Assembly: GCA_947561715.1 (NCBI GenBank)
Contig: OX387204.1
Span: 11,661,001 to 11,725,000, forward strand
Direction of reading: 5' to 3'
DNA from: Ascidia mentula
Taxonomy: Eukaryota; Chordata; Ascidiacea; Phlebobranchia; Ascidiidae
DNA length: 64,000 nucleotides
Part shown: in pieces, positions 17,701 to 63,987 of the stretch
How the letters are laid out: every line of letters begins with the position of its first letter
Numbering within the stretch: the first letter of the stretch is position 1
Translations under genes and position numbers: made by a program
Notes under the pieces: model-generated
The model's input: only the letters and a program-made list of their open reading frames with translations
Told to the model about the DNA's origin: nothing
The model's database searches: none

Positions 17701-20700
17701 GCGAAAGGGTAATCGTTCTGTAATGTTTCCTGTACTACCCCGAGGTAAACTAAGTTCTCTACACCAGAAAGCCCTGTACATCTTAGCTTTGTAATTGCAA
17801 ACCACTTTATCTTCAATGGGTGTTACAATTTACATGCAATTTTTGTTCATTGAAAGGAGTTTCACCCCGCGTGGTTACTTTAGGCGGTTTCAGGGTTGAT
17901 ACTCAGGCCTATTTGATTTTGGAGACATTTGAGAGATATTTCCTATTCCATATAGCGGACATCAATGTGAAAATATTTTCAGTAATAAAACGAGGCTCCT
18001 TTTCCTGTTGCAGGGGTCGTCGTTGAGCAAACAAGCCAAGGGGGGGAAACGAGTCCAATCCGCCCAACAACGTTCTCTTCTCAACAGCAGAACACTAAAC
18101 CGCACGTTGGAAATACATTCGGCCACACCAACCATGTTGACTCCACTAACAACCAGCCGCATACCATCGGCCCAAGTTTCACCAGACAAACCTCCACCCC
18201 TGTTCTACCAGGTATGATTTTTTTTTGTCTTTTTACTTTAGGCTGCAAAGTGCGATGATATCATTTGTGTATTTCTCTTATATGTGTGTGCTGGGGTATA
18301 AAGTGTAGTTGTTTATTGGAGTTAAATTGAATATGTTTATTAGAAATGTCGTGCAACGGAAATTTCCATTTTCATTCTTTGTTATGAAATTTGGCCTGAA
18401 ATGCACCAAGCTTTAACGCATTAAGTAGTTTGCATCTGTTATACCCCCAAAATCTGTTATGGTCCTTTGGCATCCATTGTTATCAAGGCCTTTTCTACGT
18501 TTTATATCCAAATTGTCGACTGTAAGTGAAGCAATCATAATCTTTGAAACCCATTCCTTGTTTTCAAAGCACACCTCCAGCAGAATTATGTACATAAAAT
18601 CAGGTTTAATCAATATGTCAATGTGACTGAGCAAAGCTTACGCGTTTCTTATCAAGTTCCCCGAATTTCTTCGCAAAGCGAAACGCTTAATATTAATATC
18701 AATAATTTATGTTCATTATTCCCATTCCTTCACCACCAAACAGATTTCTCCCAAGACTAATTAAGTTTGTCTTCTCTCCGCAGCTACGTCACGCAAACCC
18801 CCTCCAGCACCCCCACAAAGAAGAAACAGTCGTTTATCTGGTCACGTTAGGGAGGATTCAAACCAGCGGAGTGGGACGAATACCCCTGTTGTTTCCGGAA
18901 CATCTTTTGCCCGAACTCCGTCCCCCTCCCCCACATCAACTCATCCACAATCGTTTGGAAGGTAAACAATCCGCTATTTTTCTACTGTTATGTGAGTTTG
19001 AGGAATTTCTTTAAATTCGGCTTGTTATTTTCTGTCACATATAGTGTCCGTTCAACACCTGCTATTAAGCAACCGATGCGACCTGAAATCGGCGGATTCG
19101 CCGCAGCTATCGCAGCCGCAGCTCAGAGAAGAAATTCTTCGAGTGATTCCTCACAAGATGGAACTACTTCTGTTGCCTCAACGCCTGCCAATACAAAAGC
19201 CCCCAGTGTTGCCCCAAAACCCAAACCCGAACGAAAACATGAAATTCCCTCAACTAAAGCAAAACCGGAGCCTGCCTCCAAAAAGGCATGTAACCAACTT
19301 AGATATTGTAAATTTGTATGGAATGCGTCAATTGCATGGAGTATTGCATGCCAACAGGCAACTTGAATAGTTTATAGCATTTCGTATTGCAATAAATTAC
19401 AGTGCTGTATAGTTTTATTACAATTCAAATTCTTGTGTATTCAGGCGGAATCAAAAGAGAAGCCTCTGTCAAACGGCCCTTCGCCAGCTCTCGCGCTCGC
19501 TCTAGCGGCCAAGAGAGCGACGGCAGAGCAACAAGCAACTACTGTCGCTAGTGGTGCAAGTGTGGCAAACACTCATCTTGTAAAACCGTCATTTTTCAAT
19601 AATGCCCTTCGACGGGCGTCCGTGGAAGATAAGCGGAATGACGTCCAGCAACGTTCAGGGTGGGTTATCGGCATTCTACACAGTTACATAATGTTTTTGG
19701 ATACCAGTTCAGTCATTACAATGATAACTTTTTGTTTGCTCACTGCCCTACATTGTTACCTAAATAAGATATATGTAGTAGGTGTTTTACAGAATTTGTC
19801 ATTATATTTATTTGTTTATCTCACACAGCAATTTATGTGAATTTTTTTGCATTTGACGTAGGACGCCAGTGAACCTTCCACCCCCACCACCCACACCACC
19901 CATTAACGCTGGAAGTAAATCACCCAACTACATACTGCCCCCTCCCCCCACTTATGACCCCAACCAGGTGACGAACACGGTCAGTTACGACCAGGTGCTT
20001 TCCCTACCCCCTCCACCGGAGGCAATGTTGAACCCCCAAACACCTCCTGATATTCCACCGCCATCTGCTTTCAAAGGTATTTATGTTAGTATATGTATAT
20101 ATTAGTGAACTATACCGTAATGTAAGCAATGTGAGTGGACTGCAACATTCCAATGTTATATTGTCGTAGACACGCTACAATTTTTTGGTGGTGTTTATTG
20201 GGATTTGAAAATATAAAGTTATTCGTGTTTTAATGGAAAACTTTAATTACGTTTAAAATTTTTGCAGGTACTCTGCCAACCCCTGATAAACAAGTTCCGC
20301 CAAAGTTTAAAGGTAAATGTCATTTGCTTTTATATATTTAGCAATTTTAATAAATACTCATATGTAACATCACAAAATAAGTCGGTATTTTAAGCGAACG
20401 TGATTTGAGTTTTGTTTCCACCGCTTCGGCATCGAAATGTGTCGATTTATCTCGTATCGTTGAACATTAATATGTTTCTGTACTTTCAAGCAGACAATCC
20501 AACCCCACCTACCGAAACATACACAAGCGCCACGAACGGGGTGGATAGTGTCAGTAACGCCGATTCCGGTGTCGACGACATTGGGCCACCACGCCACGTG
20601 ACCAACGATAACAAAGGAAATATTGAAACTATCTCTGTGGTGTCTAGTCATTCGACGATATCGTCAGAAGACGGATCGGACGTCGGTGTGTCCCTTTGTT

Positions 20701-21185
20701 ACGATCCAAAACCTATCAGCGAAACCAACGGGCATTCGGGTAACATGTACCTTGACGTGTTGCGCAAAAACAAACATTCGAACGATGTACCAAAGACCAC
20801 ACCTGTCCTTACTAAAGTGCAGTTTGGAGCGCTACCGAATCCTGTCACTCAACCCAAACCGTTGAAACCAGCACCGGAAAAATCATCACCACCTGCAAAA
20901 ACCGCCCCTGTTCCGTCCGGGCAGAGTAAGACTGTTTCTGTGGATGCAAAGGTTCATTCCGGATCTAGTTTTGAGGGAAAGCCCCTAAGCTCCTGGACAG
21001 TTGACGATGTCGGGGCATGGCTGCGATCGCTTCAGTTGGCTCAATATGTTGACGCATTCGCTGAAAACGAAATTGACGGAAGTCATTTGCCAGAACTAGG
21101 AAAAGAAGAACTGCAGGAACTTGGTATAACGCGCATGGGTCACCGCCTTAGCATTGAGCGCTCGTTGAAGAAACTTGCAAATTAG
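2716..21185 (+). CDS. SHANK: SHANK family postsynaptic scaffold (ankyrin, SH3, PDZ, Pro-rich, SAM), 5' incomplete
   Basis: Multidomain scaffold of excitatory synapses and cell cortex in animals. Exons inferred from frame and splice sites: 2716-2905, 3133-3311, 3577-3744, 4644-4865, 5381-5453, 5726-5841, 5988-6055, 7350-7477, 7841-7972, 10750-10875, 11263-11314, 11788-11951, 12391-12515, 13068-13185, 15472-15633, 15976-16094, 16231-16375, 18014-18211, 18784-18961, 19045-19285, 19445-19659, 19862-20076, 20268-20312, 20494-21185. Phases are consistent and give 1356 residues plus stop. The order is: end of the SPN region (LRYKRRV), ankyrin repeats (2830-5453; e.g. GASPDVIDNRELTPVYH, GNTPMHICALYNQE), a half-conserved SH3 (7841-10875), a PDZ (11880-13185) with DGYGFVLRG and the class I histidine in GHRQIV, a Ser/Pro-rich linker with KPPPAPPQRR (SH3 ligand-like) and PPSAF (fits the Homer-binding PPxxF), and a C-terminal SAM (about 20980-21182) ending LSIERSLKKLAN. 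The domain order and the PDZ stretch PALQYLESV fix the assignment. The true start is not visible; any SPN exons are missing. Confidence 0.95.
4237..4270. repeat. 17-bp tandem duplication in a SHANK intron
   Basis: The unit TGTGGTTTGTATAACAA occurs twice head to tail without mismatch (4237-4253 and 4254-4270). It lies inside the intron between the third and fourth recognised SHANK exons and looks like a simple local duplication. Confidence 0.8.
7973..10749 (+). other. Long SHANK intron splitting the SH3 domain
   Basis: An intron of about 2.8 kb starts with GTAAGT after the first half of the SH3 domain (GEVSLTIGDLVT) and ends at CCAG before the second half (TEGFCHGK). No further coding exon was recognised inside it; the open frame at 7991-8326 has no family resemblance. 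It is one of the two largest introns of the gene, so it is a reasonable place for regulatory elements, but I see no specific motif to support that. Confidence 0.6.
13186..15471 (+). other. Large SHANK intron after the PDZ domain
   Basis: About 2.3 kb between the last PDZ exon (donor GTGAGC) and a Ser/His-rich linker exon. Open frames on the minus strand (for example 13826-14179) show no domain and are taken as chance. Nothing else was recognised. Confidence 0.6.
16967..17021 (+). CDS. SHANK: Possible alternative first coding exon of SHANK
   Basis: Inside the 1.6-kb intron 16376-18013, an ATG at 16967 opens a short, very basic peptide (MSLFRRKKKEKPLFVFDG) that ends at a good donor, C|GTAAGT, in phase 1. 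That phase joins correctly to the next SHANK exon at 18014, which is also entered in phase 1. It could be the first exon of a short isoform lacking ankyrin, SH3 and PDZ but keeping the proline-rich region and SAM. A CACGTG E-box lies 166 nt upstream (16796-16801). No acceptor fits it as an internal exon of the long transcript. It may be chance. Confidence 0.4.
19286..19444 (+). other. SHANK: GC-AG intron in SHANK
   Basis: The exon ends AAAAAG and the next bases are GCATGT rather than GT. The acceptor TTCAG|GCG at 19444/19445 continues the frame in phase 0 (PASKK then AESKEK). The nearby GT (GTAACC) would change phase and break the frame, so a GC donor is the consistent reading. Confidence 0.7.
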
Positions 21186-22358: not shown

Positions 22359-25300
22359 TCAAAAATCAACGTCCTGTGGTGAATCGGCTTTCCTGAGCGA
22401 TGTTGCTTCAGAAATTTCTGACTCCACCGTCAATCTCGGTGTTGCAAGTTTGTCAGCAAGTGGATTTCTTGTCTCAACTTCCTCAGCAGCACAAAGTCGA
22501 AAATGAACTCTACGTTTTCTCACATGAACGTAAACCGACACAACGCCACAATTAACCGCAAGTAGGCCAAGAGATGTTGCTTGAAACACAACATTATCGA
22601 TTATGGCGGGCCACGCGATTTTTGCAAAGTAGATACCGAGGATTGGAATCCAAGTTAGGCTTTCGCTTGCCCAGAACAAAGTAAATGAGATTAGCGACAT
22701 TGAAAACTGTCCATCATCCGATACTTTGCGCTTTGAGGCCATCCATGTGTGGATTACAAGTGCAGTGACGTACATAATAAGTGTGCAAATAATTATCATG
22801 AACGCAAACGAAAACACGCTAAATACACTTCCATAATTCAAAAATGGACGTGACAAAAACATTGGGAGGCAGAACTCGCTCAAAGAATAATATCCGAATA
22901 TTCCAAGAACTCGAAATCCCAATGTAGGTGCCCACTTGTTTATGACGTCACTAAATTTGTTCCAGGTGAACGAGGAAAGTTCAATGGGTTCGACGTTTCC
23001 TCCCATAGTGGCCACACGCTCGGAGAAGATGCGACCACTTTGTTGATCGATAATGTTGCCAAACAAGTCATCGGACAGGGCATCACTTTTCACCCACGCT
23101 TGTGAGTCACCGCGAGCGGTCACTGTAACCGCGATGAAAGTGATTGGTGCCCAGCACAAAATCCAAATGAGAAAAGTCAGCAAACAGCTAAACAGTTTTG
23201 TATAAGTTTTCACTGACGTCGACTTGATCGCCCCTTTGCTGGTGACCTCACGTCGACATGGGATCACCGACGCGAAACAAGCCAAAATAACCCATGGGAG
23301 AGTGACTGCGATGAGAATTATCATGCCGGTAATCTGACACTGGCTACTTGCTCGCCACCCAAGCTTATCCAGACACCCGTGAGTGTTCTGCTTACCGGCG
23401 CGCAGCAGTGTGTAAGCGAAGCACGCGCCAAGCGTCACTTTCGCTGTTGCTATTGATGTAAACATGACACTTTCGCGCAGGAATGTCGTTAACTTGTACC
23501 TCTCTCTTTTCAGCAAGTAAATCGAATTGACCAAGCCCAACAACAATCCGTACAAGTTCCCAACCACCCCACAGGCTGCCAGAATAAGCATTCCGTACTG
23601 AAAAACAAGGGAGTTTGTCAATACACTGAACAAGCACTGTAGTCTACCACTTCACGCACAAAAGCACATTTATTTTGTTAACAGCGTTTAATGTCGCCAT
23701 ATGCCAGGAAACCTGAGTGTAGTAGCAAACTTTAAGTTATCGCGTATTGCAAGCGTGTCTATAATATACAGTACCTGTAAAATCACGGCAGAGCTTGGCT
23801 CCCTTTCCACATGTAATTGCCACTTAAAGCCTTCATCGCTCGAGTTGTAAAAGTCAATGAAAACAGGGCAGTCGTTACTTTTCTTGCGACATTCCCCACC
23901 TTTGGTTACGTCACAAGGTGTGTCACGGGTGACCGAGCACTTACTCGGGTGTTCGTCAGCTTCATTGAGGCAGTCGGCGTGACCGTCGCACATTTCAAGG
24001 ATATCAAATGTGTGGGTATGAAAAGACGTAACAGTTTCTCCATCGTCTGCAACCATAAACATATGCATGAAAATGTTGAAGAAACCTTCTTGTTAGATAT
24101 TTGGATGGGTACAAGTTGATCAGAAAATCTTAACGAAGAAATTCCCGCAGAAGTCATTACACCAACGTGTGTGTACACAACTGAAAAGAGTGGCGTTGTT
24201 CAAACAAACTCAGATTCTACGCTTTTATTTCTCCCTGTCCAACAATCTTCGGTGCATCTTACCTACGAGGCATGGATGGCGGTTTGGGCAAAACATTTCA
24301 TCAGTTCCGTTGAAACATTGCGGTTCACCATCGCAAGGCTGAATTATCAAAAGATCTTCGCTCTGGTCAAAAACACACGTGTCGGTATTCTCTACTATAT
24401 GATAACACTAGCTATGTATAAACCAACAAGAAAGAGACTTGGTATTTTAATAACTTCTTGGTAATGTGAAAAAAACAGGTTTTCGGTATCTTGGGATACT
24501 ATTTGCATAAGCTATACATACTTGACATACCTGGTTTGAACAGCGGTAACCAAAGTCTGGCACCAAAAGTTGACAAAAGAGGTTTCTGGTTCTATTGCAA
24601 GCGGGCACACACTCATCCTCACCGAAAAAGCATTCGGGTCTTGCGTCACACATTCGTGCATTTATTGTACGAAAGGAGCCATCCACACTAAGGCACTTCA
24701 CGAACTCGTCACTCGTCTGCAAAACAAGTCTTTTGTTTCACGGAAATATACAGGATTACTTTTCGGTGGCATCCGATTGTGGGACATATTTAAGGATTGT
24801 TCATTGGTAAATCTACCCAACGCTCCAACAGTTCTAACACCGAACACTTGAGATGGGTTAAGTTAGATGAAATCATCCAGATTTGGTTGATCACCTGTTT
24901 TACTGGCATTTCCTTTCTATCACGGGTGTCACATAAGCTGCCCGCACAAAATCGCCCCGAAAAAATCAAGATGATATCAGTATCTATTTTAGGAATATGA
25001 CCTCAACGCTTTACATCAAAGATAAACCACAGGGCATTTAAATGGCGTCCTTGTGCTTACGTTTAGAAGTAAAGCCATCATGAACCACATAAATAATTAA
25101 CTACACCTTTTATCCAGCCTTCTGGCAGTGAATGTTGAAATTACGTCAAGCAAAAACTTGAAACATGTATATTGGGTGTAGTTTGCTGGTCTTACCTCTC
25201 TGTGTGGCTGACAAACATTTCGGTGGTCGTATGTCCCGCTCGTACATATTTCGGTTGATTTTGTACATGTCACATTTCTCGTCATTTGCTTGTCAGGAAA

Positions 25301-27202
25301 TGTACTTTGATAAATACGTTGCGGTGAGAGTGTTTCTCCAATGCCACAGGCCTCGCATGAAGCAGGCACCTCGCGCGAGCCTTCTGACCATATTCGGTTC
25401 CAGCAAACGCTCGCGCACGCTTTGTTTATCTCCGGGGATGCGGGATGACGACATAAACACTCGTCGGACATATCTGGACAGTCGATGACGCCATCGCACA
25501 CCTGCAATGTTTAAGTGAAAGCCGGATTTGCGTTGGAGTTCTGACATTCGTAAATCAATGCATTTAAAATAGTTAATAAAACAACCAAAACGTTTACAAA
25601 GAATGAATTTAGCTTCAGTTGTATCGTAATTATGGACTCCATTTTTCATAAAACCGCAAGATATGTTCCTAAAATTGCTAAAAATTTGAAAAAATGTCTG
25701 AAACACATGGTATTAAAATTTTAATTGTATGTCCATCTACAAAATGGTACTATTCGGGCATGTTTAAAATAAGTAAATCAATTATGAGAATAGGTGAAAG
25801 TTTGTATTTACCTGATGATGAAACACAGTCGCACCAGCGTTCAGGCAACGAAACATTGTTGGATGTTGGTCAGTTCGCGTCAGTGCAATAAAATGTGTTG
25901 ATGACGTCACATTGACAGTATTGGGACAAAAATCTGAGCGATCCTCGCAATCCACATAATCATCACAAACCATATGTTCTGGCAATAAACAAGTTCTAAA
26001 CTGGTCCTTGATGGAGCACTTGAAACCGACTCCGCTCTGGACTTCGTCAGCACCGTTGAGGCAATCTCTTTCACCATCGCAGAACTTGTGGCGTGGAATA
26101 CACATTGGATTTAATTGACTGAAGAAGTTTGGAATGGACGACTTGGTGTGATCTGCAAAGTTTAAAAAAAGTGGTTGTTCTTCTGTTGTGGTCGAAGCAA
26201 CAAGGAAATATATATATATTTGTTTACACTTTAACAGTTATACCATGAATTTGAATCGTTACAATCGGGGGACATTGTATTTCAAAAAGTATTATAGGAT
26301 CGGCCTAATCCTATTAAAGCCATCAATTTATAACTGGGGTAACGCAGTCATATGACCCGTACATCCTGGCGCCTCAAACGGATCGTGTTATTGATGAGAC
26401 TTATTTAAGTTACTATGAATAGTGAGTAATCCCATGCAGCCACACAGCTTCACAAGACTTCCGCTCATTTAAACCTTTTCCAAAGCAGTAGAAGAAATTT
26501 CTCGAGGTCGAGGTACAGTTCCACTCATCTGAGCAATCGAAGCAGTCGCGAAATCCATCGCAAACCTTGTCTTTTGTGAATGTGACGCGGTTGCTGTCGC
26601 ACGAGAACCACTCCTTGCCTTTTCCAACCCGCTTATCAATCTTTTTGTCAAGCTTATCTTGTTCGTAGCCTGCACAAAAATATTACTTCCAGATTTAACA
26701 AGAAATCAAATGAAGTGTGTTAAAATAACAAACCCTAATGCGACAAGAGGTTTACAACCTTGTCCCCAAAACAAGTGATGCGAAACCACGTTTTGTCCAA
26801 CAAGTGTACCCACTTGGATCGTAATCGACTGGTGTATACTCGATTGAGTATTCGTCATCTTCATCGTCTGTGTAGCTACCACTATAATCTCCGTTTTCGT
26901 ATTCGGACGATGTAACATTGCTATCTTGTTCATAGCTCGCATATTGATACGTTGCAGAGAGCGTTGCGTCTTTTGTGTGGTTGCCTGCAATAATACACGT
27001 GGAATAATACGAACGTGAACTAAGTGTAACATATTTATATTCATATTCATAAATTGAGCATAAATAAACAACCCTGTTATTCTCGTCCCAAATACAATTC
27101 ACCCTAAATCGCTAAATCAGACTTACCTGTTGACGTCTTTCCAGCTGCAAAACACGAAACTGTTAAAACACAGAAAACCAGTTGCCTTACAATGTTAACC
27201 AT
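22359..27202 (-). CDS. Seven-transmembrane receptor with seven LDL-receptor class A-like modules
   Basis: Predicted surface receptor of 976 residues. Exons on the minus strand: 27202-27127, 26984-26814, 26669-26475, 26152-25812, 25501-25196, 24716-24531, 24407-24263, 24046-23775, 23597-22359; phases close. Exon 1 is a signal peptide (MVNIVRQLVFCVLTVSCFAA). Exon 2 is acidic and Tyr/Ser-rich. Exons 3-8 hold seven LDLa-like cores, for example CDGFRDCFDCSDEWNC, CDGERDCLNGADE, CDDYVDCEDRSDFC, CDGVIDCPDMSDEC and CDGEPQCFNGTDE, whose Asp/Glu clusters suit calcium binding. The single last exon holds seven hydrophobic segments. The first contains the GN motif typical of rhodopsin-like TM1 (ACGVVGNLYG), but I see no DRY after TM3 and no NPxxY in TM7. 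The architecture recalls LDLa-bearing GPCRs such as snail GRL101 and the relaxin receptors, without leucine-rich repeats. Ligand and G-protein coupling are unknown. The second donor (GTGGGT) is the least certain junction. Confidence 0.85.
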
Positions 27203-47345: not shown

Positions 47346-50300
47346 TCATGAAGTCAGTGGGAGAGGGTTTGAAACGATTTTTTTGTGCACGTCGACGAAC
47401 AATGGAACGTACGTTACGAATTCAAGAATATCAAGGCCACCCCCTCCCCTGCGGGACAGTTTGTTGATAATCTGCGCGGAGAAAAGTTTGTTTATTCACA
47501 AGTGTTCGTATTAGATGATACACGAATTCTCACCTGCTGACGCTGCGGTTCGGTGATTCCAGCCGCCGCGAGATCAGCGTTGACCACGTCAAAATTGGGG
47601 CCGAGCAAACTTGCATAGTGTTCCTGTGAGATGAGATTATTAATAGGGGTTCCGGAAAAAATAGTAACTTAACACGACTAAAATCTCACTTTACACCGCT
47701 TCATCTTTTGTTCGAGGGACTTTCGGTCGAACGAAGGCAAGTTGCGCTTTTCGTGCAGGGCGGATATCACGCAGAACACCCGAAACGTGATTCCGTTATC
47801 CATTGAAATCCCCTGAAACAATAAACGACATCTTGTTGCTATCGACCTGTCTATTTTCGGTCACCCAACAAATAAACGCAGGTTGCGTTTTAAAGGTAAT
47901 TCCGCAAATGAACCGGGCAAAACCCAACACATATTCCCTGCTGTGAACGTTCATTCCGTGTCGCAAGCTTCCACTTCAGGCACTAATAAAGGAAGTCATT
48001 CTCGCGTAATGCGTCCGGTTCTATGATAAGCGCAAGTAATCCGAAATGTCTCGTCAAACGCATTGGTTCGCGTAAATTTGTTCCAGCGCTTGGCGATTAA
48101 TTTCTATGAAGTTATGTTTAGGTCCCAAATGAAAGGGTGGATCGCGTTAATGTGAATGTCTTTACCTCGAGAAGTTGCGAATTGTCAACGAATTCCAGCT
48201 CAGGATCAAGTTCAGCCAGTGCTTGTCTCAGATCGCACTCGTCCACAGCCGGATCATCTGTAGGATGAAGTTCCTGAGGCAAGCGATTACATTAGATTGC
48301 CACCATCGCCTAATCCCCCAATCTTTCCAAGGTTTAATCAATCGCTATGCAGGAATGTTGCGGTAGGCTTTATCACCATGTCACGAATGCTAGTGGTTGC
48401 GAAGAACTAGATTTCCGGATATGTTTAATATTACTGAATGTATCGCTTACGGTATTGCGCAATATCTTTTGAACGGATTGTTAATTACCCGAAAGATTGC
48501 GCTCTGCTTCCGGATAAACGGTTCCAGTTCCTTCCTTTTCATGCATTGTTCAACTTCCTCATTTTCGATCTGTTTCACTAAGCGACCGCACAGTGCTGAG
48601 AAAAAAATCAAGGTGATCGAATCAAAAAGAATTTGTACAAATTTAGTAGTAACGTAAGACTCCAGATTTGTGCGTGGGGCGACGGGGGATTCATCGCGCG
48701 CTTACCTCGAAGGCTTCTTTGTCTCGATTGCAGTCGCTTTACTTTGTCTCTCAGATGCACTAGCGTCACCTTGCGGTCTCTTACTTCCATTTGTGATTCA
48801 CACTGGAGGCGCATGCGAGGTGTGAGAAGTGCAAGTACTTCTTTGTCGGTCAAGGCTAAAAAAATACATAAGTAGTGCATTTAATGTATCATATATCTTC
48901 TAAGTAATTTTTTATTTCTTATTTCACAGCGAATGTTGAAGTATACCGGATTGTTTTCACCACAAAATTTAAAGCCTTAAAACTACAAAGATACTCCATT
49001 AAATAAGCACCTTGCGAATTAACCGTGTTTTCGTTTGTGTTATCATCATTTTCCGAGTTTTGCGAAGTGGTCAATTTTGCCCCGAAAACAGATGAATTGG
49101 ATTTTATTTTCGCTTTTTCTCTCCTTGCTGCCGCGGCTTCAATAGAGTCTGCGAAAGTTCTTCTGGCCACAGTAGCGATTGTTTGCTTTACTTCACCTGC
49201 AGAAATTTAAGGTTTAATATTAATTTTACGAACATAAAAACGCTTCGTTTCATCCTTGCTATCCATAAATGATGCATTTGTTGTAGTAAATGTGAGAAAG
49301 TGCAACTTTATATTGTTGGGCCATTCCAAGTTGAGTTTCACGCCATTCGCTGCGTACGTCTTCTTTTATTACTAATTTTAATTTAAAATGTACTGCTCTT
49401 CTGGCATAAAATATACGTGCTGTATTTTTTCGACGTTTCGTCTGCCATGCGGGGAGACTTCATCGGGTATTGATACCGCAATTTCAAAGTAAACTCAACT
49501 AAAATATGCAGGGGCACAAAAACAAAAAAGGACACGTTGACACGGCTTGTCAGATCGTGCAAAAACAACAGTTATAACAAATTGTTATAAACTGCCGGAA
49601 AACACACTGTTCTTTGTCGTTGACGCATCCACTGTTTTTGTGAATGTGAAGCGACTCAAAAAAGAGCCGAATTTTAGTGTGAGAAAAACGTTTTGTCGCA
49701 CTTATGTCAAGGGCCGCGAAAAATATTACTGCTTGATGCAGTTTACAGCTCTGTCAATTTCAAAACAGCTTTGCCACATATGTCATTAAATTTTCAGTCG
49801 AAATTATCTGTTAAACTGATACCTTTTGTGGCAATAATTTGCATTTGCAAGTCCTCAATGTTTTCCTTAATTTTCTCCAACACAAAACGAGTTTTGCCCA
49901 ATTCAAATTTTGGGGTCCCGACCTTTGTAAACTCGTCCAGTGGCTCTGAAAAGTAATTTTTGAAAAACAAAATTTAGATATTATTGTATGAACTACAAAA
50001 AGGTTTGCAGAGTTGAGTCATTAAATGGTAACAAAATGTACCCTCGTATTCGTTGTTAAAATGAGGGATAACCTCGACTTTTAAGCTAAACTAACCGTTT
50101 GTTTTTTTTAAATCTTTTTCCTTTCTTTTCTTTGCCAGGTTTCTCTCTCGATCTCTTAAACTTTTCACCAGAACGTACTTCTCGAAAATTCGTTTGTACA
50201 GAGGTACACGGTCCTCTCTATTGAATTCACCAATAAATCAAAAATAAAGTCACAATTGTAGGATGTTTTACATACATTCTTGCTAACCCTACCTCACAAT

Positions 50301-53300
50301 GCAGTAATGCTTTAAAATATCAAGAACTTCGTCATCCTTTGTGTCCTCATCACTGGACGATTCATTCTTATCGTGATTTCTAAATTAGAGAAAAAGTTGC
50401 AACAAAGTGAATGTTAGATAAAAATTATAATATGTATTTTATACGTATATAAGTCCAAGGTATAGGTGGGAAGTTTCGTGTGTTTAACATGTACCTACCC
50501 TTTGTTGGTTGTTTGTCCAAATGCAACTTTTTTGCGCAACATTTTCTTGGATAGTTCCTCCCAGGTCGTATTATTGTAGGCTGTTGGAGGTTCCGAAGGT
50601 ATTGCACTTTCTGATTTTGAGGTTATCTTTTAAAAATAATGTTTTTTTTGGATTGTTGCTGACGACTGCGTGCATGATTGGTCAGTATAACTACATTATT
50701 TTTTAATACACGTTTAATATTTCACTGCTCTTTATATAGATGTGTAGGTGTATTGATTCTTATTGGCGACCGATTCGACTTTTAGTTTTATCAGTGCCCA
50801 TGTCATTTATTTGTTTATTATACATTCGTGTAGTAGTTTCTTTTTGCGTAAAATACAAATCATTAGATTTATTCCAGAAATTTACGAACTTTAAGGGTAT
50901 TTTAATTTGTCACATTTCAGCTCAAATAAAACCGACCAACCTTGGTTTTGGCGCCAACTGCTTCCACCATGGTCTCGGGCTGATCCATTAACCTTCTCAG
51001 CTCTCTCGCACTTGAAATGCTACTAGAACTAGCGCTCTGCAAAATCACCAACATTGATCATATAAGGCTACCAACAATCCCAGGATTATTGATCAATGGC
51101 GCGCTTGTTATCTCAACAATCGACCCTAAACCCCTGGTATACGAATGAAAGCAAGGAAACAAAAGCCAGTGGAGAGCAGAAAATCTACTTACTGCTATTT
51201 TGTGTCCAAATGCTGTGGCATAGCGAACTTGGGGCATTGTTTCCGGGGTCTCTTTTTGAGTTACCTTCAGTAAAAAATCATCAGCTAACTAACCAGCGAA
51301 ACAAATTGTGTCATGAGTATCGCACCTCGATTGTAGAAACCTTGGAAGGGAGATGTATTTCTACAGTAGATTTAGACGATTTTTCTTCCTCCAGTTCTTG
51401 TTTCGTATCTTTGACCCTGTTAATTCAAAAACATTGTTAGTTTCTGGTAGTTTAAGTGACATGCATCGGTCTCACTTTGATGAAGGATCAATATCTGTAT
51501 CTTGCGAAGTCACTGTGATATCTAAAATGAAATTGATTAAAAAATTATGTTTAGCTTTTCATCACAGCAACTTTTCGTCGACATGAAAAATCCAATATGA
51601 CAAACCTGGAATTAATGGCGGGTTGTTGACGTTTGGAACAGAAGGAAGTTGTAAGATGTTTGGGGACAAAGATCTTTCGCTGCTGGGTGAACTTTGTCTT
51701 GAATTTCTCCCACTTCGACTAGCTTCCTGTTTTATTGCCTTCAGCTTTTCGCGCTGCTGCTTTCGCCGAGATACCCTGTCTAGATCGCAAGTAACAGTTT
51801 ATCGATCCACATGTAAAACGGTGATCACATAATTTAATGAATAGTTTCTTTCGTATAAATATCTTCCTGTGATTTCGAATTCACAAAACTGTTTCAGCCC
51901 AATTGAACTGAAATAATCTTTCACAAGCTCTTAGAGGAAGGTTTTTATGTGCCCACGTTTTGCTGCCCTATAACACTGAATAATTGATGCCGTTTCATAA
52001 ACTGGCAAAATGTAACATTACAACAGACTACAATTCTATAGAAATACCTTTCTTTTGTGGCGTCGGCGTTTCAACAGGTATGTGATGTGTCGTAATTGGC
52101 AGATTTTCCGGGTTGATTGAATTAGCTGTTACAATTGAGCCACGTGGACTGGTTATAGCAAAATGCCAATTTTTTTGGAAGTCTTCAACACGCAAATTCT
52201 AAAACAACAAACAGTGAAAATAAGTTTTGAACATATTTACCAGGGTATCGACTCTCTATTTTTTAGGCGCGTGTAAAACAATGCACTTGCGTACGCGAGC
52301 ACTTGATCATGCAAAATGTTACAGGATTGTCACATATGCGGCCGTAAACGAAACAGTAGGATACCGAAATATATATTTGGTGATACTTAGATTACGTTAC
52401 TAAAGAACAAGTATTGTTTTGACAATATTCTTTATAAATATAGATTATATGAAGTTGCATAGTTAAAAATCCCATACAAACTAACCCTTTTCAAAAGGTC
52501 TAGCTCGTTTCTTTGGCGCTTCTGTGTCTCCAAAATATTGTCTTCCGTTAACGATGATATCCTCAACTGCCTGTTTTGTGTGAATGGGCTCCTTGGGCGC
52601 GTAGGCAGAATATGGCTACGTTGTATCTGCAATCGTGAAAGAAGTCTATAACATTATTTTTTTAATTATTAACTATTTTTTGGGGGTCTGTAATACATGT
52701 AAAATGTGCCTGTATCTTGATATAGGAAGACAAATACAAAAGAAACGTTTGAAACATGTTATGTTGTGTACTTTATGCGCCAGTTTGTGGGTGATATCTT
52801 CATTGTAAATCAGTTTAGCCTAAAATAAGATTATGATGCATTTTTTATTCAACATAAAAATAAATTTGCGTCAGTTTGGAGCCAACAAACCTCGAAAGGC
52901 CTCGGTGCATTCCACAATCTGTTTCGTTTCTTTCCAGTTATCGACGACACTGAACTTCCATCAGTGGAAAAGTTGGAATGTTTATATAGTGCAGTTACTA
53001 ATTTTCTTTCCGAAACGTCAACTTCTGAAATATGCCTGTCGTTTTCGAACGTTTTCTGCTTTAGAGTCTGTCGAATTGTAAGAATTTGTAATACAAAGGC
53101 ATTACATACGTAACTAATAAACAAAACATACTTTTAAAATATATTGTCCTTCGTTGTGCAACCACAACTGCTCCGCCTGAACTATTTCGTCAAACTCCAA
53201 ATCAGCTCTGGCTTTTTCCAATAACCGCGGTAAAACATGGAGGGAGAGAACTCCTGAGGAAGATGTTGGAACTGGACTGTTTCTGCACAGAAAAAAAAAC

Positions 53301-56223
53301 GCATTGCGCCATAAGCGGCTTTTTTTTTATTTCAAATACCTTGGTGTGGACAGTTTTCCTATCTTTGCTGTTTCACCCCCCATTGTATATTTGTTAAGGG
53401 TCTCGGTAGTTTTTAGTTTAACTTGCTGCTCAAAACAAGGTGCATCTGCGATAAAAAATTAACCATTTGTATGCAGAAGATTTCATCGTGTTATTATCTT
53501 GAATGTAATCGTACTTAGAGCTTCCGCCATTGCTTGTACCAATGCTGGGAAGTTCCCCCCTCCACGGATGTAAGCCTCGGTCACATAAGGTTCGTCAGGA
53601 AATTCCATTAAATCCTCTTGCAAATTGACATCTTTTGAAAACTCTTCTCCAATCGACTGCAGCGATAAAATGTATTCAGCGATAAAATTACGAATACATA
53701 CTTTAACCTACTTTTATGTTCAATCGACGATCATGATGCGTGAATTATATCGTGTGAAGAGTTTACATATAGTTTTTTTTAATTCTTATGAGTTATGAAA
53801 CCCACGTTATAACGTTTTGTTTTTTTGGCAACAAACGCAAATTATTTTTACCTGCAAAAGTTTGACGTCCTTTTCACTTTCGAATACGTTGTCGGATAGA
53901 ACATGTTCATTAAAACCAAACCTTGCAAAATATTTTAAGGCTCTTATGCTTCCACCATTCTGCAAAATAATAGTTCACATTCAAAGATTTTTCCAAAGAC
54001 AGGCATTTTGTTGTCTACCTCGATCAGTCGTTGCAAAAGTCTCGCAAAAATGTACAAATGCTCATCTCGTTTTGAAAATAACTCCAAGTTTTGTAAAAGA
54101 ATCACTTCGTTGGGAAATGATGAAATGCATTGTTCAATTCGCTTTCTTTCCAAGTCATTTTCTTCTAAATCTGTATTATTGTAGCATAAGTGGTCAAATA
54201 CTTTGCCATATAATCTCGTGCTATATAGCCATGAAGGTTATTTACCAGATAAAGACCTTTGCTCCACAAACTTTTTGAGCATTTTCAGATTGCCTCCAGA
54301 GTCGACGTATTCCATGAACGTTTCCGCACTACGATGTCTGTTGTCATTTTCTAAGATCCTTTCAAAGCTCTCCATAATTTTCTCATGACTGGCTGTCGCC
54401 CTTATTTCATCACAGTAGTATTCCAAGATCTCTGTGTTCCCGCCCATTTCCTCAAAGCGTCGTATTTCGTCGTCGTTCCTCCCTATGCATTGTATTGTTG
54501 CAAATATTTGCTGACAAAAACAAGTGAAAATGTGGTTTGAAGAATGTTTAGCTTGCCTTTTGTAAGCAGAACCATCAACATATTCATATCCGTTCCTGAA
54601 CTTTCGATTTCACTGAACAATGTTGCGAAATCAACGTCATCTCCCAATTTCTAAGCAAAAAAGGGTTTCGTTGCTATTTTTTGCATAAGGAGCCACATAC
54701 AGTCCGTATTAAAGATTTGTGTAATCGACTTTTTATAACCCGAGGGTTTTCTACAGCAGTTGTTTTTAGATCACCTTGGTTAGATCAGATTGTTTTTTCA
54801 AGCTTTCCCGCAATAGTTGTTTGATGTGTTCTCTGTAAATGTCAGAGTATTCTTGGATGAGATTTGTGTTCACTCCTGACTCTTCTAACTCCAGTAAAAC
54901 GTTCGGGTCAAAATTAGATTCCAAATACTCCTACAGAGTTTATACAGTTTTTATGAAAAAACGGCACATTTGAGAGTAGCCCACTATTGTGCTCCAATAC
55001 TCGTTTGATTCACTAACGAGTGAGCAATATTTACAAGCGATTATACTGTTCATAGGGTACAAACTTTCTTACTTCTAGAGCGGATCCATCACCGCCTTTT
55101 GAAAGAAAACGTTCATACAAGTGTGATGAATACTGGTAAACCGTTCCAGTCAACTGTTCTGGATCTCCTGGTGGCAATTGTGACATATTTTGATAACTGC
55201 TGCAATGAGTATGAGATATTTTACCTGTCATTTTGATACGATGGTCAGTCGAACTGGACAACCATTTAAGCGTGGACCATGAAAGATCCTCGTTTGCAAT
55301 TCGAGCGTTTTGGTGATAAATTGAATAACCACCCCCAATACGAACTGGTGCTTGGTAATGTTGACTACATATAAAGGAACAATGCTTTGGAATCAACGTA
55401 TCCGACAAAACTTATTACTAGACTAACTAAATTTATATTTGTTTTAATGACAAACAAACTTCCAAGGGCACACTCGTTATTTCATCTTACTGTGGCCCCT
55501 TTCTGTGGAAACAACCATTGCACAGTCCGATGCGATCAAATGCTGTTGAAATATCGATAGGTGTTCGATCCATTGTGTTCTCGTGAAGCTGAGCTGAATC
55601 GCTCAGAGCAATAAACCTGCAGATACACAATCACAAACCAAGTTCAGAAACAATAAGGTTTGCTTGTGTTTACTACAGCATTCAACAAATCCATACTCAT
55701 GAGGCAGCGAAGATTGGTGAAGTTTTGACTGCTTCGTTTTCATCGTTTCACTAGTGTTGGTTTGATCTTTATTACTTGTTGGAATTGCGTGAAAAGACGA
55801 CCTTTCCAGACTTCGGTTTGCCTTAAATAAACAAATCTCCTAACAACTTTGCAAACTCACCCATACTCATGCTTGTAATTTAAACAATAACATTCTTTAC
55901 CTTTCTGGGGTTGGGTATGACCCATGTTTCACCTGGGTCTGGAAAATACCCATTAACCCATCGTGAATAATCTGGTTTCGTCAGTGGCCCTGTCATTTCT
56001 TGGAGTACCTTATTAAATATGCAGTGTGTCATCATTGCACGGTCATAAAACATTCATCGACACAAATGGTAAATTTGTTTAGTTAAACCCGTACCTTGTA
56101 TTCATGTTCCGATATTTCACCGGTTTGTTTTCCAAGCAAACGACGGCGAGCATTCCAAATCGCTTTCTGGTAAGATGTATTTTGCCATGAAGCAGGAAAG
56201 CGGCCCAAATCTGAATGTTTCAT
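47346..56223 (-). CDS. Unrecognised 1402-residue protein with GG-N/S-x3-L helical repeats and helical C-terminal module
   Basis: There are 32 exons on the minus strand, from the ATG at 56223-56221 (MKHSDLGRFPASWQ) to the TGA at 47348-47346; all phases close. Exon starts, high to low: 56223, 56008, 55821, 55616, 55364, 54930, 54650, 54482, 54170, 53959, 53656, 53445, 53282, 53067, 52626, 52198, 51779, 51521, 51416, 51264, 51036, 50626, 50379, 50217, 49945, 49196, 48855, 48595, 48273, 47812, 47623, 47471. Residues about 220-560 contain seven variants of one motif: SKGGDGSALE, EESGVNTNLI, ESSGTDMNML, EMGGNTEILEYY, DSGGNLKMLKKF, NGGSIRALKYF and RGGGNFPALV, each followed by amphipathic helix, as in an alpha-solenoid. 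The middle is Ser/Lys/Glu-rich and probably disordered or coiled (KQQREKLKAIKQE, KSLRDRERNLAKKRKEK). The last 150 residues (from ELHPTDDPAVDECD) form a compact helical module resembling paired EF-hands without canonical calcium loops, ending LDILEFVTYVPLFVDVHKK. No signal peptide or membrane segment. A cilium- or sperm-associated role is a guess. Intron 7 is GC-AG. Confidence 0.75.
54483..54556 (-). other. 74-nt GC-AG intron in the solenoid gene
   Basis: On the gene strand the exon ends ACAAAAG and the intron starts GCAAGC. The only acceptor that keeps the frame in phase 1 is TGCATAG before GGAGGAAC, giving TK-GRNDDEIRRF. No GT donor in the interval preserves the frame. Confidence 0.65.
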
Positions 56224-58076: not shown

Positions 58077-61000
58077 ATGTCTGAAATAGTGGTTGCCAAG
58101 GGTGGAAAAGCCACGTTTTCGTGCGAATTACCAGATTCATCTTATCAAGGACTTTGGACCAAGGTACAACATTACTTTCGTTACCTTGCATTGTTACATG
58201 ATAAGCATAAAGATTATTAAAAGGTAAACATAGGTGCAATAAGCACGCAGTGGTTATTTTTTGACCAAAACACATTTTGTGCCAGATCAGCTCATAATCA
58301 AATACTGTGTCAGAATACCCCTGTAGTCGGTAGGAAACTATGTTTTCACAAAATTTTACATGTAGCCTTGAAAATGTTTGGTGTTGGTTATGACATTTCT
58401 ATATTCGCCGATGTTTAGAATGGAGGAACTCTTCGACATGACGGCAAACGTGTACTTATCAGTCAAAGTGGCGCTGAACACACCCTCATTATCACCACCA
58501 CAGAATCAGCAGACGCTGGAAAAATTTCCTTCAAAACAAACTCTGGGGGAGTCGAAGTTCCATTCGAATTGGTGGTGACAGGTTATTCCTTTTATGATTT
58601 ACCAAATTTACTGGAAGATTTGATTTGTGGTTACCATAGGCAAAGTTCGCGATGTTCAAGTTGGTTTTTGCGGACAAGATTCTAGTTTTCCTGTGTGTGA
58701 AAACTACACGCAACGAGAATAATTTTCTATTTATGTTAACCGCAAGCATTTTCGCCATAATTGCTTAAAACAGTTGGGGCTTACGTACCGTAATATACAG
58801 GGACAAAATATTGTAATCACAGCACATCCAGTCAAGTCTACATGTGCAGTTTAAAACTAGACCATGGTACCATCATGATGATGTAATTCGTGTGTTTGAC
58901 AATCTTTGAAAGTTATATTTGTAAATTACCGCCAACGATTCAATTATTCAGCCTAAAGCAGTGTTTCTCAAACTTTTTCCAATCACGTACCGCTTATTTG
59001 TTTTTTAATACACTGCGTACCACCGTATTACTATACCATAACTGTTATGACATAACACCAATGAATAACAATGTAGCCAATATCACAAGTTGCTTGGATT
59101 TCTTTATTGTGCATTTGTGACGCAATAGTATCAACGTGAAATTGTTGCACAGTTGAATACACGATGTCAGAATTACTTCAACACTGCAACAATTTCACGT
59201 TGATACTATTGCGTCATAAATACACAATAAAGAAAACCGACATCATGTATTTTCAGCGCTTTTGGCTTCTGCAAAGTGCGGCAAATTGTATAGAGTAGAC
59301 TAAATCGCGTACCACTTGAAAAGCTCTCGCGTACCATTAGTGGTACGCGTACCACAGTTTGAGAACCACTGGCCTAAAGACATACTTTTGCCCCGACCTT
59401 AGAATAAAGTTTTGAAAACTGTTTACAAAAGCGTCTACAATGCTTAAAAATCGAATCGTGGTTGTTAAAATATTTTACCATTACAAGAAACCATTGTCAT
59501 GCAGAACCACCAGCAATTGATCCTGTTGAGTTTGAAAAGGCATCTCAGTCGATGGGAAACTTAAAAACCGGTAAAACATCGAACACGTTAAACGCAGTCA
59601 TCCATTGTATGCCAAACATCTGCATCGTTGCAGGATCGCCGATGGTTTTGCGAGTGCCATTCAGCGGTGCTGTTCCTATAACGGCATCCTGGACGTTCAA
59701 TGGCAACCCTGTTTCGACCAGAAAGTTTGACGTTAAAACAACCGCGACCGGCAGCACTTTGACCCTCGCCAACTTTCAGGAACAAGATTGTGGGGTGTAT
59801 GAGGTACGTGTTCAACTTATAAAATCTCATTTCCCAAAATAAGCCTATTTTGATTTAGGTTTGGACTTCATTGCTTATTTCCTTTTTCCAATTGGTTGAG
59901 TCTTTTTAAGGGATTTGGATGTTTGAAAACATTAAACTAAATCCCTATAAACAAGTGCATTTGTCATTTCACTAGCGTTTCGAAGTGTCCGTGTTTTTTA
60001 ACCTTATTACACGAAGGTTCTGCTGAAAAACAATTTCGGCGAGATGCGCGTCCCAGTCAATGTTTCGCTTTCTGAATTTTCCCAAGTCAGTTTCGAAACT
60101 GTATCAGTGCCCGGAGAAACTATCCAGAAAACCAGCACAATGGTTATCAGCCAAGGTCAGTAAAATTAAACTTTGTTGTCGTCGTCATTACGACACGTGA
60201 AGTGGAATCTTATAATAGGTAAAAAGAATTAATTGCATTGCGTGTAACAAACGCGTCGCGGTTCGCAATCCAAGTCGGACGACAACTGTACGACCAACAG
60301 TTACGTGGCCTTCTATATTGTAAAACCCATGGGAGGTAATGGGTCGGATCGTGATTTGCGTCACAACTTGACACTACTGCAATGGCGGTGCGCAGCTGCT
60401 TACCAATCACCAGATCTATCGCTCATCGAATAATGTCGCTGTTAACTGCGCCAATGCGATTTAAACTTAACCCACAGTTTGCATTCTTTTTCATTATGTA
60501 ACCAACGTGCCTTCAAACATTTTCCACGGATTCCATTTACAGCAATATCCATTTATCTCAAAAATTCTTTATAACAATACACTCCCCACTTTTTTCTTAA
60601 CCTAAACTTTGCGTTTTGTCATATTTGCAAACAAATTTAACTTTCTAAATTGACGGAAAACAACTCGAAAATTGGTGTTGTACTCCGCAGTTTTCGGAAT
60701 TATGTTTGTTTTTAATATAAATAGAGCAATAGTATTAAACAACTTTTTTTAACCTAGATGTGGAGATTCCATCAAAACCTGCCGGTAACATCAAGTTTGA
60801 CAACATGTCGGCCAACCATTTCACAATTAGCTTTATTACCACGAGCAAGGGTGACAATATTAGCGAGTACAGCATTGAAAAAAGTGAAGGCGGCAACGGA
60901 TGGCAAAAGGTAAATAAATTTATAATTATTGCTAAGTTTCACAGATATTAAGTATGCTTTGATTCGTGCAATAACCACAAATTGTTATCATTTAGCTGCG

Positions 61001-63987
61001 AACGTAAAGATGCAGCATAGATATTAAAGGTTTCTGTTCTGTTCAGAGCGCCACGTTCAAACCTGGTGAAAAATCAGTGACGATTCAAGGACTTCAGGAG
61101 GGGAAGCGGTACACGTTCCGCATCCGGGCAATTAATCCTGCGGGTGAGAGCGAGGCGTTAGAATCAAGGGCAGTTACAGTGCAAAAACCGTCACAGAGCC
61201 CGATCCTTGACACTGCCGTATTAGAAAAATTGAAAGGGGATCAATGCCTAAAATCTGGAAAGGACTTCCGTTTGAAGGTAAAGTTTTCACACGTCTCGGG
61301 TGTCTGGCAATTTTATGAAGGTATTGCCAACAACATAAATTTCGGTGAAAAAATGTTTTTTGATTGATTAAATATAACATGGAAGCAAAGAAGTGATTTC
61401 AACCTCATATTTTTGATTATCCAAAATGTCGTAGATTCCCTACGTTGGTTTTCCACTACCCATAGCACAGTGGTCAAAAGACGGTAAAAAGTTGACCACC
61501 AAAGGTCGCATTTCAAGCGAAACAACCGACAAGGACACATCTTTCGCCATCACCGGTCTTGGCGCAGAAGATACAGGAGAATATTCGTTGCAGCTGAAAA
61601 ACAAACAAGGCAGTACCAACACTTCTTTCAGGGTTGTTATCATTGGTGAGAAAACACCTTTTAGCCAGTTTGTTACTGTATGGCAATGACACATGGGATA
61701 TAGTTTTAGAAACCCCAGGAGTCAATAAGACTAGACCCTGGAATCGTCGGAGACAAGCTTAGCTCTTAACTCTCAGCGAAATTTTGATTAATTACGCTTG
61801 ATTAATTATTATTAAAATTTTGATTAATTATTAATTAACTTGTCTGAAAGCCAGTGCAAATTGCATTGTCATTTATCAGCACCATGTCTGCGCTTAAGAG
61901 TTTAAATCTCAAACACTTTGAGATAATGTGAACGTGTCTCCTTTGCAATTCCTTCTTATATATGCCTTCCTGATTTCAGACTGAAAAGTTAAAAGTATTT
62001 TGTTTACTACGCATCTCAGATGCACCTTCGCAACCTGTTGGGCCAATTGAAATGAGCAATGTGTCGAGCACTGAAATGACATTTGCGTGGAAACCACCAA
62101 AATCTGACGGAGGAAAACCTTTGCAAGGATATATTCTCGACAGGAAGGATTCCAAATCGCCCATGTGGACTGAGCTTCAAAAGGTTTGTTCTGCATTGCG
62201 GAACATCAATACACAACAAATTCAGTTGCGGTGACATAATAGCTGTGTCCGAAATGTATTACCTTATTCCATTTTTATACTGTTTAAAAATGACAGGAAA
62301 ATAAAAATTCCATTTTATTTACTAGTAAATTTTCGGTCAATAAGCACAGGGATTCAAAACGGTAAAAATTGATAATCTACTGACAAATGCGTTTTTTAAG
62401 GTCGGACCCGGAACGCTCAGTTACACGAGCACTGGATTGAAAAAGGGTTTGAAATATTCCTACCGAGTCCGCGCTTATAATGAGGAAGGGGAAAGCAAAC
62501 CTCTACTTTCCCAATTGGTTCTGGCAAGCGGTAATACCTAAGACGCACCTTAGTGGTTTACTGGTGAATAAATTAAACGTGACTTTCAGGTCCTCCGGGT
62601 CCACCTGGGAAGCCGACAGCTGGAAAAGTGACGTCAACAAGCATACAGGTCACGTGGTCAGAACCGGAGAACGATGGTGGGAGTGCGGTGACGGCTTACT
62701 ACGTGGAAATGAGGGAATCTGGACAAGATTGGAATATTGTAAGCATATGCTAAAATCGGAAATAAATAATGATTCACTATACAAGGTATCCCATATAAAC
62801 TATGTGCTTGATTTGCTGATAACTGTGTTAGGTGCCAAGCAACAAAGTGAAGGGCACGAGTGCACAAGTTGACAACTTGGTACCGGAAAGTGATTACGAA
62901 TTCCGCGTTTGTGGCAAAAACTCAACAGGAAAAGGCTCGTGGAGTCAAACCGAGAAACCGATAACAGCTATGGATTCGCCAGGTATTAGTCGCCGGTTAT
63001 TTTTGAAACACCTTTTTCAAAATAATAAAAACGGGCCGTTTGGGCAAATAACTTACATGCGCGGTTTGAACTTGTTTTTCTTCCGGTGTAGAATGTGAAC
63101 AAAAAAGTCTGTATTGTTATTTCCCCAAAAAAAATTCTTTGAAACTTTACGTTAATACTTGTTGCGTTACATTTTTCTTATTTTTGTAAGCCATTTATGG
63201 TCGTTTGCTATTTCCCCAAAAAACAACACGCTCCGTTTTATGTTGACAGAACCCCCTGTAATTAGCGAAGCAGTGAAAGAAAACCTCGCATCCCCCGTTA
63301 GTGCGATTGCAGGTGAAGATGTTTCGCTAAAAGTTCCAGTTTCTGGAATTCCGAAACCTAAAGCTGAGTGGAAGGTGAACGGAAAACCAATTGACTTGGA
63401 TGGTATGCATTCACAAAGATGCCATTTGTGTAATCACAAGGCCGTTTATTTTATATTACATTAAACAGGTGGTAGATACGTGTCGGTTTCATCAAGAGGA
63501 GTCTCTGAATTAAGATTCCCTGGTGCTAAGAGAGCTGATAGTGGAAAATACAGTGTCGTGCTTACTAACAGTGAAGGAGAAGCCACAGCTGACCTCAACC
63601 TTAAAGTAACTGGTAAGTATATTTCGTGGTGCAGACAAAAAATTATACATGGATCGAAGACAGGAATTAATCGTGTTATCATCACTACGCGTTATGTATT
63701 GGAACGAAACCCATACGGAAGATCTGCTGAAATTTGATTTCATCTTTATTTAAACTTCAGAAAATATTATTCAGTCCCAATAAAGAAACGTTCAAAACCA
63801 ACTATAAACCGAAATATTACTTTTAGATTCACCGCAGGCGCCGGGCGGTCCGGTAAAAGTAATCAAGGCTTCTTCCAAGGCAATAACCATCGGTTGGGCG
63901 CCACCTACCGACGATGGGGGTCTTAACATTACGCAATATTTGGTTGAGAGGAAAACATGTGGGGACGTTATGGAGGAATGGTCGAGG
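58077..63987 (+). CDS. Titin/twitchin/MyBP-C-type Ig-FN3 muscle protein, N-terminal part
   Basis: Intracellular sarcomere-type protein built of I-set Ig and fibronectin III domains. Exons: 58077-58163, 58419-58581, 59505-59803, 60017-60155, 60758-60909, 61047-61277, 61435-61645, 62020-62183, 62401-62530, 62590-62738, 62832-62982, 63250-63402, 63469-63612, 63827-63987; phases close through 778 residues, and the last donor is GTATGT. Domain order: Ig (from MSEIVVAKGGKATFSCEL), Ig (IVAGSPMVLRV to NFGEMRVPVNV), FN3 (IPSKPAGNIKF to NPAGESEALES), Ig (QWSKDGKKL to EDTGEYSLQLKN), FN3 (DAPSQPVGPIEM), FN3 (GPPGPPGKPTAGKV), Ig (AEWKVNGKP to ADSGKYSVVLTN), FN3 (DSPQAPGGPVKV, incomplete). Domain borders fall at phase-1 introns, as in titin-family genes. 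No signal peptide. The ATG is taken as the start because no acceptor lies directly before it and a TATA-like box is upstream. The Ig-FN-FN-Ig rhythm recalls twitchin and the titin A-band; the C-terminus, where a kinase would decide the name, is outside the window. Confidence 0.88.
58959..59371. mobile_element. hAT-like MITE with 8-bp duplication and internal hairpin
   Basis: The 413-bp element in the second intron of the Ig/FN3 gene starts CAGTGTTTCTCAAACT and ends AGTTTGAGAACCACTG; the ends are inverted repeats matching at 15 of 16 bases. The 8-bp direct repeat GCCTAAAG flanks it at 58951-58958 and 59372-59379. It has no coding capacity. The subterminal TAGTGGTACGCG is shared with the element at 37979-38176. 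Confidence 0.93.
59101..59233. repeat. 57-bp-arm inverted repeat inside the MITE
   Basis: The arms 59101-59157 and 59177-59233 are reverse complements at 53 of 57 positions, with a 19-nt loop. The core is CGCAATAGTATCAACGTGAA on the left. If the intron is transcribed this folds into a long hairpin. Confidence 0.9.
61786..61841. repeat. AT-rich cluster of TTGATTAATTA-type motifs
   Basis: Within an intron of the Ig/FN3 gene, TGATTAATTA or close variants occur three times in about 55 bp, separated by TTATTAAAATT. It may be simple-sequence expansion; the motif also matches generic homeodomain sites. Confidence 0.5.

Follow-up and report, generated by a model that had tools for sequence, protein, structure and literature searches.

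The minus strand of positions 47346..56223 of the window (the whole analysed stretch of 64,000 nucleotides, to which all coordinates without a contig refer) carries a long spliced frame in which a glycine-turn motif keeps recurring. The question raised by this locus is whether the frame represents a real gene and, if so, what kinds of protein its parts resemble.

Gene model

47346..56223, minus strand: whole coding gene, 34 exons, 1408 codons plus stop (rebuilt gene model, splice/coding score controls)

When rebuilt from the genomic sequence, the gene forms a single open frame that starts with an ATG at 56223, contains no internal stop and closes with a TGA ending at 47346. These are exactly the bounds given by a first-pass annotation made from the letters alone, although its counts of 32 exons and 1402 codons differ slightly. 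The 33 introns have a median length of 86 bases (range 57-626). Phases close at every junction, as had been claimed, but this is partly by construction since the junctions were picked for phase fit.

The model is partly hand-made and includes three weak donors, at exon 3 (gtatgg), exon 8 (gttctg) and exon 16 (gtacac); by eye, a GC-AG donor further on looks better for exon 8 but breaks the frame and phase. A stringent automatic run gave just 8 exons and 346 codons. A looser run, in which the start was fixed and an end region prescribed, gave 40 exons and 1459 codons and spliced beyond the stop of the final model; it was edited by hand by taking out seven small exons, adding exon 8 and changing the bounds of exons 17, 18 and 34. 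On a simple splice/coding score, the best free model, which need not equal the final 34-exon model, reached 318 on this strand vs 143 on the opposite one. The controls gave a mean of 141 and a maximum of 169 for 20 dinucleotide shuffles, and 138-222 for ten other 9.4-kb stretch-strands within the window. A score well above the shuffled maximum bears out the earlier opinion that the gene is almost certainly real. Judged from its sequence, the locus looks like a real, many-exon, ordinary nuclear protein-coding gene, uncharacterised and made from known kinds of parts.

Other candidate genes are also visible in the window. On the plus strand, 3048-3407 and 20409-21185 contain ankyrin repeats (Ank_2, 5e-8) with a SAM domain at the frame end (1.4e-22), which we presume could belong to one SHANK-type scaffold gene. 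A 430-codon frame on the minus strand (22359-26237) has, by eye, the look of a seven-transmembrane receptor, with no Pfam match at 0.01, and an LDL-receptor class A exon (1.5e-9) lies nearby on the same strand; this is perhaps a relaxin-receptor-like gene. Immunoglobulin I-set (1.5e-7) and fibronectin type III (2.9e-6) exons lie on the plus strand at 59408-61367.

Layout of the protein

55901..56223, minus strand: exons 1-2, N-terminal segment, residues 1-79 (genome search matched just its own exons)
53435..55165, minus strand: helical repeat region, residues 211-545, seven GG-type turns (motif counts and column statistics)
50295..53434, minus strand: linker, residues 546-1030 (composition)
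48489..50294, minus strand: charged segment, residues 1031-1260 (composition and by eye)
47349..48706, minus strand: C-terminal four-EF-hand-like module, residues 1225-1408 (alignment to two relatives)

From about residue 761 onwards, Ser, Thr and Pro make up 30.7% of the linker, a composition that points to a probably disordered segment, and residues 1031-1260, judged from composition and by eye, are probably helical or a coiled coil. Searches of the 196-Mb genome of which the window is part (79 contigs) found neither the N-terminus nor the repeats convincingly a second time. No relative of the repeat region was found among the prokaryote genomes searched, and none of the C-terminal tail among the viral contigs searched.

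The C-terminal EF-hand-like module

48232..48267, minus strand: EF1-like loop HPTDDPAVDECD, no acidic residue at position 1 or 3 (by eye on the alignment)
47777..47812, minus strand: EF2-like loop GISMDNGITFRV, most ligands lost (by eye on the alignment)
47570..47608, minus strand: EF3-like region LLGPNFDVVNADL, shortened loop (by eye on the alignment)
47421..47456, minus strand: EF4-like loop SRRGGGGLDILE, of canonical length, no acidic residue at position 1, 3 or 5 (by eye on the alignment)

An EF-hand loop carries acidic or amide ligands at positions 1, 3 and 5 and an acid at position 12. By eye, none of the four loop regions of the window protein shows this pattern: loops 1, 2 and 4 can be fitted to the canonical 12 residues, with most calcium ligands replaced, and loop 3 is shortened. 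Searched alone, the module has no Pfam EF-hand match and its best PDB match is no better than E 0.37; its homology to EF-hands is established through two relatives in the same genome.

Contig C69, 7246250-7244948, minus strand: EF-tail gene (genome search)
Contig C1, 9877001-9877813, plus strand: EF-tail gene (genome search with the C69 tail)

A genome search with residues 1175-1408 returned, besides the query itself, a single weak hit on C69 (E 0.11), and the tail of the C69 gene in turn led to a third place on C1 (E 0.086). Local scores of the window tail are 97 against C69 and 111 against C1, neither reached by any of 2000 shuffles, and the two relatives score 189 against each other. The last exon alone scores 86 (C69) and 68 (C1), again with no shuffle of 2000 reaching either value. 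Leaving this exon out lowers the score to 47 for the C1 tail, a value that 5 of 2000 shuffles reach, and to 31 for the C69 tail, vs a shuffled mean of 28 and with 536 of 2000 shuffles reaching it; judged by these scores, the similarity between the window and C69 tails is carried by the last exon. By eye, the last intron is in phase 0 and at nearly the same place in the window and C69 genes. By eye, a phase-2 intron ahead of the third EF unit is common to the C69 and C1 tails and missing from the window gene. The final model was ended at the first in-frame stop in the last exon, a choice that predates sight of any relative; the C69 gene, found later, ends shortly past the same NPL motif, and the frame on C1 continues beyond it.

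The first loops of both relatives are EF-hand-like. That of C69, DRDKDGYLSCQE, is canonical by eye, and its exon alone matches Pfam EF-hand_1 at 0.005. A profile of the three modules matched CaBP1 (E 2.9e-7) and calmodulin in the PDB. The matches listed are confined to the first EF units (profile positions 8-87), a part of the profile whose calcium-loop signal is owed mostly to the relatives. Pfam EF-hand_6 matches one of the three members at 3e-5, and this member is not the window's. We know of no EF-hand protein with the shared PLF...H..I..NPL tail. Because the tails are homologous and most calcium ligands of the window protein are replaced, the first-pass view of C-terminal EF-hands without calcium-binding loops gains support from these two genes, most firmly for the last EF unit. 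The alignments thus support the reading of the window tail as an EF-hand module that has mostly lost its calcium ligands, with the evidence strongest in the last exon and weaker upstream.

Upstream of the EF tail on C1 (9867001-9880000, plus strand) lie long frames rich in Ser, Lys, Arg and Asp, one of several hundred codons, which make an odd partner for an EF module.

Since the tail is found in three genes of the same genome, it can be regarded as an established module. This also favours the idea, which we consider evenly poised, that the gene is the orthologue of a vertebrate protein known under an open-reading-frame name and lying outside Pfam and PDB, two resources that cover just part of animal proteins. 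Searches of both with the window protein gave nothing convincing and no family name, which counts against such an orthologue but does not test it.

The GG-turn repeat

55076..55096, minus strand: GG turn 1, GGDGSAL (gene model position)
54859..54879, minus strand: GG turn 2, SGVNTNL, variant (gene model position)
54579..54599, minus strand: GG turn 3, SGTDMNM, variant, in exon 8 with its weak donor (gene model position)
54246..54510, minus strand: exon 9, 88 complete codons, two GG turns, two three-helix units (AlphaFold2 models)
54424..54444, minus strand: GG turn 4, GGNTEIL (gene model position)
54277..54297, minus strand: GG turn 5, GGNLKML (gene model position)
53936..53956, minus strand: GG turn 6, GGSIRAL (gene model position)
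53540..53560, minus strand: GG turn 7, GGNFPAL, top rank of the seven on the armadillo weight matrix

Seven turns of the form xG(G/V/T)(N/D/S)xxxL occur between residues 233 and 533. Five are strict GG turns and two are G[VT] variants, which confirms the seven motif variants reported earlier. The strict pattern GG[NDS]xxx[LIVM] is found five times in residues 216-545 against 0.05 expected, a count that none of 5000 shuffles reached. The units were also compared with one another, as had been suggested, using only columns outside the motif (-2..+5 excluded): these scored -82 vs -298 +/- 51 for anchors placed at random within the region, so that the flanks are alike beyond all but 4 of 20000 random placements (0 of 20000 in a version that counts the motif Leu as flank). 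Hydrophobic residues recur at -8, -5, -4, +4, +5, +8 and +9 relative to the turn. These results support the relatedness of the seven units, each a repeated helix-GG-helix unit. Their anchor spacing is irregular (25, 52, 31, 49, 69 and 67 residues), unlike that of a regular solenoid unless degenerate units lie between.

Exon 9 was chosen for structure prediction because two turns sit in this one uninterrupted exon. AlphaFold2 was run on exon 9 alone and with four other exon translations as rows. Each run yielded six helices, grouped into two three-helix units whose GG turn lies after the second helix and before the third; the second run shows three isolated bridge residues in addition. Both models are of low confidence (mean pLDDT 52.9 and 58.6). 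The structure prediction that had been suggested, carried out for this exon, recovered helical units with a GG turn, but at pLDDT 53 and 59 it does not establish their packing into a solenoid. From these models it may be inferred that the units stack into an armadillo-like alpha-solenoid with three helices per complete unit. The first-pass annotation had proposed an undescribed alpha-solenoid: the helix-GG-helix repeat stands, but the attributes "undescribed" and new family are unproven, the turn being placed as in armadillo repeats and pLDDT being low. Because of this placement, the low pLDDT and a comparison limited to Pfam and PDB, a new kind of solenoid is no more likely than a very divergent armadillo-like one. 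We give little credence to a new alpha-solenoid class, built on a helix-GG-N-helix unit and joined to a calcium-blind EF-hand tail, that would mark a small undescribed animal family of partner-binding scaffolds.

Are the repeats true armadillo repeats?

Armadillo repeats have a glycine loop between helices 2 and 3 and a regular spacing of about 42 residues. It is conceivable, but on balance doubtful, that the turns mark true, strongly diverged armadillo repeats and that the gene encodes an unrecognised armadillo-repeat protein. Such an origin would agree with the exon 9 models, in which each three-helix unit has its GG between the second helix and the third. It would also agree with the hhalign comparison of the unit profile with 21 armadillo repeats, out of 22 that this genome yielded, which aligned in the expected register with a score of 10.1, above 60 random window sets (maximum 8.9), 60 column shuffles (maximum 8.2) and 60 sets drawn inside the repeat region (maximum 8.8); the corresponding HEAT comparison, at 5.6, fell inside the random range (maximum 6.1 of 40). 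On an armadillo weight matrix, five of the seven turns are in the top 10% of positions. Against this, the hhalign probability is 1.7%, when two halves of the armadillo set match at 98%, and shuffled sequences have a median maximum of -7.2 on the weight matrix, which the best score anywhere in the protein, -9.0, does not reach. The 33-residue unit windows overlap slightly in two neighbouring pairs. There was no significant match to the Arm profile (PF00514), with none in Pfam at E up to 10, and none of the spacings observed keeps to the regular 42 residues. The HMM-HMM comparison that had been advised gave no strong match to the armadillo family in the repeat region. Given a faint in-register score but a probability of 1.7% and no convincing weight-matrix position, the repeat may work like an armadillo-type solenoid, while membership of the family is unproven.

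Fusion of two neighbouring genes in the model, with the GG repeats in one and the EF tail in the other, is improbable. In its favour are the 626-base intron that separates exons 27 and 28, the longest in the model and well above the median of 86, and the C69 and C1 relatives, which showed no GG turn in the parts that were read (by a scan that also missed one of the window gene's own seven, because that turn spans a junction). Against it, phases fit at every junction, though the junctions were chosen to fit, and no internal stop or start is needed.

A possible role

The best overall explanation, in which we place about as much trust as doubt, is a soluble scaffold of ~1400 residues that combines an alpha-solenoid with a calcium-independent EF tail. 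In such a scaffold the groove of the helical array would hold one partner, and the long flexible linker and charged helical segment would connect the solenoid to the four-EF-hand-like tail, which, independently of calcium, might hold a partner helix constitutively. The cellular site, as a guess, would be the cytoplasm, perhaps the cilium or sperm.

The significance of the gene is modest, short of the repeat turning out to represent a new class of fold. If orthologues exist, Pfam misses a repeat and a C-terminal EF-like tail common to at least three genes of one animal. Naming both parts would annotate unnamed animal proteins and would provide an example, open to testing, of EF-hands whose fold is retained although calcium has been lost.

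Comparison with known systems

The window repeat resembles the armadillo repeat (PF00514) in the units of three helices that the low-confidence exon 9 models show, its glycine turn between helices 2 and 3, the hydrophobic pattern past the turn and a faint profile similarity in register, and differs from it in the GG-N turn, the irregular spacing and the lack of a significant sequence match. The C-terminal tail resembles EF-hand modules of the calmodulin/CaBP1 kind through the match of the three-member profile over the first EF units and through the canonical length of loops 1, 2 and 4; unlike in these proteins, its ligands are mostly replaced and its loop 3 is shortened. A third comparison is with the EF-tail genes on C69 and C1. 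Unlike the window gene, the C69 gene keeps, by eye, a canonical first calcium loop, and on C1 long charged frames rich in Ser, Lys and Arg come before the module; the C-terminal module of the window gene is homologous to those of both.
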